This document shows, piece by piece, positions 20,487 to 42,775 of a DNA stretch of 47,430 bases. Positions within the stretch are counted from its first letter, which is position 1. Every line of letters begins with the position of its first letter. Position numbers and translations under genes: made by a program. The notes beneath the pieces were generated by a model. The model had not been told where the DNA came from. It saw nothing but the letters and a program-made list of their open reading frames with translations, and ran no database searches. The DNA is from a bacterium c-19 (GTDB lineage: Bacteria > Bacillota_I > Bacilli_A > Erysipelotrichales > Erysipelotrichaceae). Location of the stretch: contig QZED01000013.1 in the NCBI GenBank assembly GCA_009917405.1, forward strand, positions 1 through 47,430. Direction: 5' to 3'.

Positions 20487-21827
20487 CTATAGCATATACG
20501 GCAGTGCTATAGTAGCTAAGCCGAGGAAAAACAAGAAGCCGAGTACATCGGTAACAGTTGTGACAAATACACCTGATGCGAGTGCCGGATCAACATGACA
20601 TTTCTCGAGAATGACCGGAATAAAATAACCGGCAATCGTGGCTAAAATCATATTCAAAAACATCGCTACACCGGTTACTAATCCAAAGATCGGATTTTGT
20701 TCAAACAACATCGCACCGATCGCAATAAATAAACCGATCACAACACCGCTGAATAAGCCGACACCGATTTCCTTTGCCAATATTTTCATCGCATTTTCCT
20801 TTGTCAGTTCACCCAGTGATAAACCGCGCACTACAATCGTTAAGGACTGAGTTCCGGCATTGCCGCCCATACCGGTCACAATCGGCATAATCGTAGCTAA
20901 AGATACAACTTGTGAAATCGTTCCTTCAAAACAGGAAATGACCGCCGCAGCCAACACGGCAGTAAACAGGTTGATCACCAACCACGGCAATCGTGATTTC
21001 AGTGATTCAAACAACTGTGAATCAATGCGTTCTTCCTTACCAACCTGCCCCAATCGGTTAATATCTTCCGTCGTTTCTTCCTGAATGACGTCCATAATAT
21101 CATCCACAGTAATTACACCGAGCATATGATGTTCCTCATCGACAACCGGCATCATCACAAAGCCGTATTTTTCAAACTGTTTCCATACCGCTTCCTGATC
21201 CTCATCATATTGAACACTGATCACATTGGGATTAGTTATTTCCAGCATATTTGTATCAAAATTACTGCTTACAATATCACGCAGTGATACTACCCCCTTC
21301 AGTACATTCTGACGATCCGTAACATACAGATAATACGCCATTTCGGCATCAGTATTGCGTTGCAAATACTCCAGTGTCTGATACACCGTATTCTTGGCTC
21401 GTATGGATATAAACTCAGTCGTCATCAAGCCGCCCGCACATTCCTTTGGGTAGCTCATCAGTTCTTTTACATCTTGACGATCCTCATTATCTAATTTCGC
21501 GAGTAACTCCTGTTGTTCCTCATCCTCAAGCTCACCAAGCAAATCCGTGACCTCATCCTTCGACATTACCTCTAAGATATGCTTCTGTTTGACATCAGAG
21601 AACAGCTTTAACAGTTCATATTTATCCTCGTCATCCTCTTCCTCTACAACCTCGGCAATCACCTCATCGGATAAATGGGCCAATAATGCATAAGCCGATT
21701 CCTCATTTTCATGAATCAGATCCAAGATAACAACAGGATGAATATCCGTGATCACAGCTTTTATTTCCGCTTCATTTCCCCGAAGCAACAGCTGCTTCAA
21801 TTCTTCATTTGTAATTTTACGCTTCAT
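20487..21827 (-). CDS. mgtE: Magnesium transporter MgtE
   Basis: This is a 446-residue Mg2+ channel/transporter. It has an N-terminal MgtE_N helical superdomain (about 10-125, many acidic residues), two CBS domains (about 130-255, with ECAGGLMTTEFI and GVITVDDIMDVIQE) and five membrane helices. The pore motif VTGMGGNAGTQSLTIVVRG is present. In the family, Mg2+ binding to the CBS/N domains closes the pore. It is the first gene of a five-gene operon with 1-14 base junctions. It has its own promoter and a 125-base leader whose last hairpin covers the GGGAGG ribosome site. Confidence 0.96.
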   Translation of the reverse strand: MKRKITNEELKQLLLRGNEAEIKAVITDIHPVVILDLIHENEESAYALLAHLSDEVIAEVVEEEDDEDKYELLKLFSDVKQKHILEVMSKDEVTDLLGELEDEEQQELLAKLDNEDRQDVKELMSYPKECAGGLMTTEFISIRAKNTVYQTLEYLQRNTDAEMAYYLYVTDRQNVLKGVVSLRDIVSSNFDTNMLEITNPNVISVQYDEDQEAVWKQFEKYGFVMMPVVDEEHHMLGVITVDDIMDVIQEETTEDINRLGQVGKEERIDSQLFESLKSRLPWLVINLFTAVLAAAVISCFEGTISQVVSLATIMPIVTGMGGNAGTQSLTIVVRGLSLGELTKENAMKILAKEIGVGLFSGVVIGLFIAIGAMLFEQNPIFGLVTGVAMFLNMILATIAGYFIPVILEKCHVDPALASGVFVTTVTDVLGFLFFLGLATIALPYML

Positions 21828-21955
21828 TGTATTCCTCCCTTTGGAAGGATCCTACCGCTTTCGTTCAAGTGGCACGTGATCCTCATCAGTATTTCTGTCT
21901 GTCGTCATCGAAATACTTTGTTCTTTCACAGCTACCACCTGCCTCTCTTTCTTTA
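21828..21955 (-). promoter_or_regulatory. Structured mgtE leader, candidate metal-sensing RNA
   Basis: Read on the minus strand, the leader can form a long-range stem CAGGTGG (21935-21941) with CCACTTG (21866-21872). This encloses a perfect 8-bp hairpin AGTATTTC/GAAATACT (21910-21917 and 21888-21895). A final hairpin CCTTCC-AAA-GGGAGG (21843-21848 and 21834-21839) sequesters the ribosome site. GAGGAT (21879-21884) can instead pair with ATCCTT (21845-21850), which would free the site. It does not match the M-box consensus as I know it. The role in Mg2+ control is inference from mutually exclusive pairings and the gene downstream. Confidence 0.5.
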
Positions 21956-21959
21956 TTTT

Positions 21960-21988
21960 ATCATATTTTTCATCAGCTTCCCATGCAA
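21960..21988 (-). promoter_or_regulatory. Promoter of the mgtE operon
   Basis: TTGCAT (21983-21988) and TATGAT (21960-21965) are separated by exactly 17 bases on the minus strand. They lie just after the terminator of the upstream Clp-like gene. Confidence 0.72.
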
Positions 21989-21993
21989 TAAGC

Positions 21994-22027
21994 AAAAAAA
22001 GAAAGAGTGTTGTTACTTTTCTCTTTC
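21994..22027 (-). terminator. Intrinsic terminator of the Clp-like gene
   Basis: GAAAGAG pairs with CTCTTTC (22021-22027 and 22001-22007) and is followed by seven U residues on the minus strand. The 5' arm overlaps the stop codon. Confidence 0.82.
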
Positions 22028-37683: not shown

Positions 37684-37698
37684 CTTACCCACAGATAA

Positions 37699-37815
37699 TG
37701 TCTTTTCTCATCCGGACTATACCGTCGGTACCGGAATTTCACCGGTTCAGCCGCTCACTCCGCGGGTCATGGACTATCACCATCGGTAGGGACTTGCACC
37801 CTGCCACAAAGACTT
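37699..37815 (-). ncRNA. FMN riboswitch (RFN element)
   Basis: The minus strand contains the conserved RFN blocks in order: GCAGGGTGCAAGTCCC, ACCGATGGTGATAGTCC, TGAACCGGTGAAATTCCGG and ACCGACGGTATAGTCCGGAT. A closing stem GTCTTT/AAAAGAC bounds it. In the known class, FMN binding turns off riboflavin synthesis or uptake genes. It precedes ribU and a PNPOx-like FMN protein. Confidence 0.96.
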
Positions 37816-38065
37816 CATATTCACTTTTTTTGAAATGAAACAATGCCACAACATTGTCTGCATTACTATGATATACCAAATCATAAAAAATGTAAATGAG
37901 AATTATAAAATTATTATGATTCTTGAGAATTGATTGCTTTATGTAATCCATTTTATCGATACACCCGAATAAAACGATATTTAGAATAGAATGACATAAT
38001 ATTAAAATAACAAATATATCAAAACGAATGATATTAGAATTGAATGACAAAAACAGTAAAAAGCC

Positions 38066-42390: not shown

Positions 42391-42775
42391 GGGGGTGTCC
42401 TTGGTTTCGACAAGGGTATGCTTGATAGGGATTGCAGCCGAGTGGCTCACGTAACAGCCAATTAATTTAAACGCAAAAACTAAATTAGCAAACGTGTTCG
42501 GTGGTAACCGTGCCGTTGCTTTCGCTGCCTAATTAACCAATAGCGGTTTGCAGCCTCCTTCTTGTACTCTCATTCTGCGGTACTTGAAGCGAGTCTAACC
42601 TTAGTAGAATGTATGGGAAATGATAGTCTGGATCATTTTCAAGAATCCTAACAGACAGCCTCAATAGGTGTTTGTCCGTTCACTACCTATTGAGTTATCA
42701 GTAACGGACTAAGCTGTAGACGTTCCTATGGGGAGCTGCTTTTGGACAGGAGTTCGACTCTCCTCACCTCCACCA
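42391..42775 (+). ncRNA. ssrA: Transfer-messenger RNA (tmRNA)
   Basis: The 5' GGGGGTG (42391-42397) pairs with CACCTCC (42765-42771), followed by discriminator A and an encoded CCA (42773-42775). The T-arm GGACAGGAGTTCGACTCTCC is clear. The tag frame most likely begins at GCA 42473 (after TTAATTTAAAC) and ends at TAA 42530-42532, giving AKTKLANVFGGNRAVAFAA; a start at the later in-frame GCA 42488 would give a 14-residue tag. The C-terminal AFAA fits the degradation signal. With SmpB it frees stalled ribosomes and marks the broken protein. Length is 385 bases, one piece, normal for Bacillota. Confidence 0.97.

Follow-up and report, generated by a model that had tools for sequence, protein, structure and literature searches.

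A probable upstream reading frame attenuator in the leader of an mgtE Mg2+ transporter gene of an Erysipelotrichaceae bacterium

The mgtE leader of a gut bacterium, in the window, by which we mean the whole stretch of 47,430 nucleotides that was analysed, raises the question of how translation of a Mg2+ transporter gene can be regulated in a genome in which no M-box (RF00380) has been found. From the letters alone, an original prediction had proposed a Mg2+-responsive leader RNA with riboswitch logic that differs from the M-box, and the absence of an M-box has been borne out in the leader (E≤10), the window, the whole genome and the window genus; the leader has no match beyond chance to any Rfam family, even at E up to 10. 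The proposed promoter stands in part: an extended -10 element of the form TGRTAMAAT is common to the window genus and G012, a genome of another genus, as judged by inspection of the upstream sequences, but a strict consensus scan has returned no sigma-70 promoter pair in the leader. Further upstream, 3' of a Clp-type ATPase gene, an inverted repeat is followed by a T-run (Table 1). This repeat has not been called as a terminator by the scan and is likely, from its sequence, to terminate the ATPase gene, so that the mgtE leader is probably a separate transcription unit. Compared with dinucleotide shuffles, the leader folds with a z of -4.5, and none of 200 shuffles has been found to fold as well.

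A feature missed by the original prediction is a reading frame of 25 codons, with a Shine-Dalgarno (SD) sequence of its own, that fills the leader and ends 24 nt before the mgtE ATG. This upstream open reading frame (uORF), which is presumably translated, is uninterrupted and has an SD in each of the 8 related leaders, and its frame is kept across indels of 6 nt and 3 nt. Between the fixed elements, the sequences of genus members differ considerably, and as far as the DH codons the indels come in multiples of three. The peptides of the genus relatives read MKSKHALTERNADEDHIPLEDKR, MKSKHVLTERNADEDHIPLGYKR, MKSDRISVPLDRNTDEDHLPPEYNVK, MNSESVPVAVDMNLDEDHLPPDLNIK and MKSESSGDAVAIPLDEDHLPPKQYAK; in G012 the peptide is MKPEPNSKTSKASSQDHLPPSHII, with ATG as start instead of GTG.

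Three pairings have been observed to recur in the genus, namely stem 1:2 over the uORF ribosome site, hairpin 3:4 over the mgtE ribosome site (RBS), and the alternative helix 2:3. In stem 1:2, all 8 aligned leaders form the seven core pairs (100% of cells), three of which vary on one side, helix 2:3 consists of 6 invariant pairs with up to 4 further ones in three genus members, and hairpin 3:4 shows a C-G to U-A compensation in G012 (alignment and inspection). Both the hairpin over the mgtE ribosome site and the complementarity of GAGGAT with ATCCTT, as originally proposed, are thus maintained in these leaders, and so is the long stem; the 8-bp hairpin that this stem encloses does fold, but beyond the window species and its closest relative it is no longer perfect. 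The pairings are kept in all 8 leaders, but covariation has been found to be modest and mostly one-sided, because ribosome sites always make up one of the arms; the covariation score is attained by 44 of 500 shuffles, so that chance alone is not rejected.

Table 1. Positions of the mgtE leader, its elements, other features of the window, and M-box plus uORF loci in other genomes.
Feature	Position	Strand	Basis or remark
mgtE leader	about 21948-21828	(-)	upstream of mgtE, ends at mgtE ATG 21827
mgtE, controlled gene	20487..21827	(-)	MgtE_N, CBS and MgtE domains (Pfam scan)
Extended -10 element TGATAAAAT	21955..21963	(-)	read by eye from upstream sequences
Inverted repeat GAAAGAG...CTCTTTC, then TTTTTTT	21994..22027	(-)	read from sequence, 3' of upstream Clp-type ATPase gene
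uORF SD AGGTGG (region 1)	21935..21940	(-)	GGTGGTA invariant in 8 leaders
uORF	21852..21929	(-)	GTG start 21929, 25 codons, TAG ending 21852, peptide MKEQSISMTTDRNTDEDHVPLERKR
Stem 1:2, 5' arm	21926..21941	(-)	fold; covers uORF SD and start
Stem 1:2, 3' arm	21866..21879	(-)	fold and alignment; codons for D-H-V-P-L
Region 2, GAGGATC	21878..21884	(-)	5' arm of alternative helix 2:3; codes for E-D
Region 3, GATCCTT	21845..21851	(-)	pairs with GAGGATC (2:3) or with mgtE SD (3:4)
Hairpin 3:4, TCCTTCC-AAA-GGGAGGA	21833..21849	(-)	fold; arms 21849-21843/21839-21833; sequesters mgtE SD 21839-21834
8-bp inner hairpin AGTATTTC/GAAATACT	21888..21917	(-)	fold; 21917-21910 with 21895-21888
FMN riboswitch	37696-37817	(-)	107.6 bits
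tmRNA gene	42391-42775	(+)	142.2 bits
M-box and acidic uORF (L068/L167)	G060:C69:15628-15781
M-box and acidic uORF	G017:C3:256795-256957
M-box and acidic uORF	G027:C39:690939-691105
M-box and acidic uORF	G099:C60:16956-17122
M-box and acidic uORF	G261:C3:74363-74525

From these pairings a switch may be postulated. In the ground state, stem 1:2 would hold the uORF ribosome site against codons 18-21, and hairpin 3:4 would cover the mgtE SD, keeping mgtE off. Ribosomes that dwell on the first uORF codons, or repeatedly abort and reload there, would block region 1, upon which GAGGATC could pair with GATCCTT and free the mgtE SD. The likely signal would be low Mg2+, felt as inefficient translation or as drop-off at acidic and proline residues (intrinsic ribosome destabilisation). 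We favour this explanation with some confidence, namely translational attenuation operated by the uORF of the leader, with low Mg2+ probably sensed via ribosome destabilisation. Its parts differ in strength: the attenuator, which is likely in the window leader, is well supported computationally by predicted pairings and sequence comparison; a response to Mg2+, as originally proposed, is likely as well, and Mg2+ is the probable signal; destabilisation by the nascent chain we infer for the window leader, and it is least certain in the window genus.

The proposed switch has been examined by computing the cost of opening the transporter SD, with the leader free or with a ribosome placed on uORF codons. 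For the window mgtE, opening costs 7.9 kcal/mol in the free leader, 2.4 kcal/mol with the ribosome at codon 1, 4.2 kcal/mol at codon 4, and about 6-8 kcal/mol with the ribosome on codons 12-23, which, together with the pairings, supports the two mutually exclusive states that had been proposed for mgtE translation. Across 46 leaders, a ribosome on the start lowers the cost by a mean of 1.86 kcal/mol, against -0.35 kcal/mol (sd 0.22) in shuffles, and the effect is gone once the ribosome has reached codon 7. For corA leaders, placing the ribosome at the first codon lowers the cost by 4-7 kcal/mol in 5 of 10, with no drop from codon 10 on. The codons computed as sensitive coincide with the acid/proline positions in the uORFs of relatives. 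Moreover, in 28 of the 46 leaders, pairing of the uORF ribosome site with sequence downstream of it exceeds that of shuffles (p≤0.05); a duplex test of mgtE RBS pairing reached p≤0.05 in 10 of 46, a weak result, as the split removed part of the hairpin, and has been replaced by the opening-cost calculation. The predicted RBS hairpin suggests translational control rather than Rho-dependent termination in the leader.

Evidence on the peptide comes from the upstream sequences of 130 usable mgtE genes of the class, in which uORFs have been called by a rule blind to the peptide (at least 6 contiguous anti-SD matches before ATG or GTG, 45-190 nt upstream). Such strong-SD uORFs precede 37 of the 130 mgtE genes, compared with 12 of 211 controls, genes whose upstream gaps are long. 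An acidic residue in positions 2-5 combined with proline in positions 2-6 has been found in 20/37 of these uORFs and in 6/258 control gene starts (Fisher 4.8e-16, a value to be read with the caveat that the genera are not fully independent). This count is a second version, based on the first ATG and on independent control genes; an earlier count of acidic enrichment against mgtE starts had shown no contrast, the second ATG in ATGGATG having been picked and the mgtE starts being acidic themselves. The uORF starts MDERP, MDGSP, MDKPGGS, MDNPGGS, MDDKPGGS, MPDPSQ, MDEIP, MDDLP, MDSGP and MCTDPDGN illustrate that the peptides before mgtE have acids and proline in common, and no single shared amino acid. 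Within codons 2-8 of related pairs, differences are distributed over the three codon positions as 14/19/35, mostly at the third (p 0.0015); between MDASVPER of G030 and MEASVPDR of G017, for instance, there are five differences, all at third positions. Among the control uORFs, just one has an acidic start, MDYLPIDY (L159), and the gene after it resembles, by eye, an RpiR-type regulator and not a transporter.

Several observations count against the attenuator reading. Under the strict rule, such a uORF is missing upstream of most of the surveyed mgtE and corA genes, and the window genus itself falls outside the strict set, its SD match being only 5 nt contiguous. The window uORF begins with GTG, and its peptide start, MKEQS, is devoid of the N-terminal acid/proline motif. 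At most one early acid is seen in the genus (E3, D4, E4 or none), E3 being the only one in the window, and in two members (MKSKH...) the first acid comes no earlier than codon 9. A later run, DEDHVP at codons 15-20, has been considered as a parking site that opens mgtE and rejected, since no opening is computed there. Because the acidic part of this run, DEDH, is encoded by codons 15-18, and a ribosome parked there is not computed to open mgtE, the case for destabilisation is weakest in the window genus; and as DEDHVP/DEDHLPP is encoded by bases of stems 1:2 and 2:3, its conservation may reflect RNA pairing.

For the window genus, one may consider an attenuator in which Mg2+ acts through the stability of stem 1:2, and thereby on initiation at the uORF, and not through destabilisation by the nascent chain. 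The missing N-terminal motif of the window peptide would agree with such sensing, as would the position of stem 1:2, the most stable element, over the uORF ribosome site, but the strong acid/proline signature in relatives with the same stem arrangement would be left unexplained, and we regard this alternative as unlikely. Lower still we rate a Mg2+-binding riboswitch, in which the RNA would sense its ligand directly and the reading frame would be incidental. The strong fold and the conserved bases of the genus could be taken in its favour, and here the original prediction has to be revised, as these bases are accounted for by the two ribosome sites, the uORF and the pairings between them. No conserved unpaired core has been found besides the ribosome sites and pairing arms, no Rfam class matches, the uORF frame survives indels, and many unrelated leader sequences have in common only the uORF and the pairing logic. 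Since the same three-part arrangement recurs in other genera in unrelated sequences, each time with a short frame before mgtE or corA, a uORF attenuator explains the leader better than a riboswitch, which we hold to be quite improbable.

The recurrence before other Mg2+ transporter genes has become apparent with a covariance model built from the window leader and searched in 145 genomes of the family. It matches the window genus, G012 and, at E 0.0015, a leader of G134 in which the uORF MAPEPEANYPLEQTRQKTQEAYAR immediately precedes a CorA gene; the window genus itself has no CorA at E≤1e-20. Inspected matches at E 0.01 to 1 include an mgtE leader in G161 and a corA leader in G070; three others in this range (L179-L181) proved to be coding or unrelated sequence and not leaders. 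In several genera, corA uORFs start with MSPEP..., MAPEPEANY..., MFPDPEY... or MKEDPYS.... In an unbiased search, 392 genomes of the phylum have been scanned with the pattern GGTGN{3,9}ATGKCNCCNGARCC (SD-like element and M[SA]PEP), which gave 8 matches, and 0 when reversed. Seven of the 8 lie directly before corA, some of which were to be expected, as the pattern had been designed after corA leaders had been seen. The eighth (L219) belongs to G372, of the distant family f5, and its uORF MAPEPSSYSSKLKK... precedes an MgtA-like P-type ATPase; only the first part of this gene is covered, and the best NCBIfam model of the partial protein, a Mg2+-translocating P-type ATPase, stays below the whole-protein cut-off. 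The acid/proline signature thus stands before Mg2+ transporter genes of three families, and the finding of nothing but Mg2+ transporters downstream of the pattern matches is the strongest evidence that the class concerns Mg2+. In other f5 genomes, mgtE carries in-frame TGA, as in code-4 mollicutes.

The same scan bears on an amino-acid attenuator (Asp, His or Pro), or one for general translation stress, that would lie before transporters by chance. uORF attenuators for amino acids are common, and the window peptide has D, H and P codons, but the pattern finds Mg2+ transporters only, from different families, and the peptides before mgtE share no single amino acid; we consider this very unlikely. 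With the ribosome at codons 24-25, the window opening cost drops to 0.1-2.8 kcal/mol and hairpin 3:4 is predicted to melt, which would allow ordinary translational coupling of opposite sign. Simple coupling of this kind, with a ribosome at the nearby uORF stop melting the hairpin and no Mg2+ switch, is the least probable reading, as it leaves unexplained both the conservation of the alternative helix 2:3 and the acid/proline N-termini of the uORFs in relatives.

The uORF attenuator that we favour would be of a kind known from enterobacteria (MgtL, MgtQ, CorL). In the Salmonella mgtQ-mgtB system, the choice between 1:2 plus 3:4 and 2:3 has been shown experimentally (PMC8092293). The window leader has the same pairings with the RBS in 3:4, though with limited covariation, and, as with mgtQ and MgtL, a Mg2+ transporter gene is preceded by a short ORF that has an SD. 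Common to mgtQ-mgtB (PMC8092293) and the leaders described here are a short uORF, the stems 1:2 and 3:4 opposed to 2:3, and, as predicted for the latter, translation controlled by freeing the RBS of a Mg2+ transporter; the early acidic codons of mgtQ have a strong counterpart in the relatives, and in the window E3 alone. However, mgtQ is intergenic in a PhoP-controlled operon of Enterobacterales, has 8 codons and precedes a P-type ATPase gene, whereas the present uORFs lie in 5' leaders of MgtE and CorA genes of Bacillota, have 20-30 codons, and show no sequence similarity that we have seen. In E. coli MgtL, low Mg2+ makes ribosomes drop off at the motif EPDP (PMC11282234, citing Chadani 2017). 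MgtL-mgtA of E. coli and Salmonella is likewise a uORF before a Mg2+ transporter gene with acid and proline near the start, comparable to MSPEP, MAPEPEA, MPDP and MDxxP in the relatives, but acts by Rho-dependent transcription termination instead of an RBS hairpin, and the window peptide has no EPDP-like start. corL-corA of E. coli and Salmonella (PMC11552253) also combines a uORF before corA with mutually exclusive, Mg2+-responsive leader structures; it is Rho-dependent, with few acid or proline residues in the uORF, and has been likened here by description. The mgtE motif SRC-65-1 (PMC11109978) is a structured leader covering the mgtE SD as well, set apart by its description, as it is reported only in Thioalkalivibrio, one genus of another phylum, and no uORF is described. 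The M-box shares Mg2+-responsive control of mgtE-type genes in Firmicutes, but is absent from the window genome and genus. In the literature covered, with subscription papers and preprints outside its scope, no description of uORFs before mgtE, or of such control in Bacillota, has been found.

More broadly, leader peptides that destabilise the ribosome might constitute a widespread and independently evolved Mg2+ control of mgtE, corA and mgtA-type genes in Bacillota, translational in nature and sometimes placed behind an M-box, a generalisation to which we give an even chance. If true, Mg2+ would be sensed by the ribosome itself in a large Gram-positive group whose searched genomes mostly have no M-box (present in 17/145 and 14/198), and the same acid/proline trick would have been reached for unrelated transporter families. 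Nascent-chain destabilisation as a general bacterial Mg2+ sensor would then become testable, and dozens of naturally occurring leaders, some of them behind an M-box, could serve to tell RNA sensing from peptide sensing. In G060, G017, G027, G099 and G261, an acidic uORF before mgtE closely follows an M-box (Table 1), so that two Mg2+-related devices stand in series; these tandems recall the M-box of M. tuberculosis that controls a uORF (PMC12810186).

Some further observations concern individual leaders. The second mgtE of the window genome (L055, G000:C124:3533-4023) has no such leader or uORF. The starts MDNPGGS, MDKPGGS, MDDKPGGS and MENAKPGG recur in several genera before type-2 mgtE (L050, L056, L064, L068, L069, L091), and these PGG-type starts are possibly a conserved peptide motif. 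Finally, a hairpin followed by T6-T7 has been seen between uORF and mgtE in L093 (G109), L096 (G067) and L099 (G095); this terminator-like sequence suggests a transcriptional version of the same attenuator.
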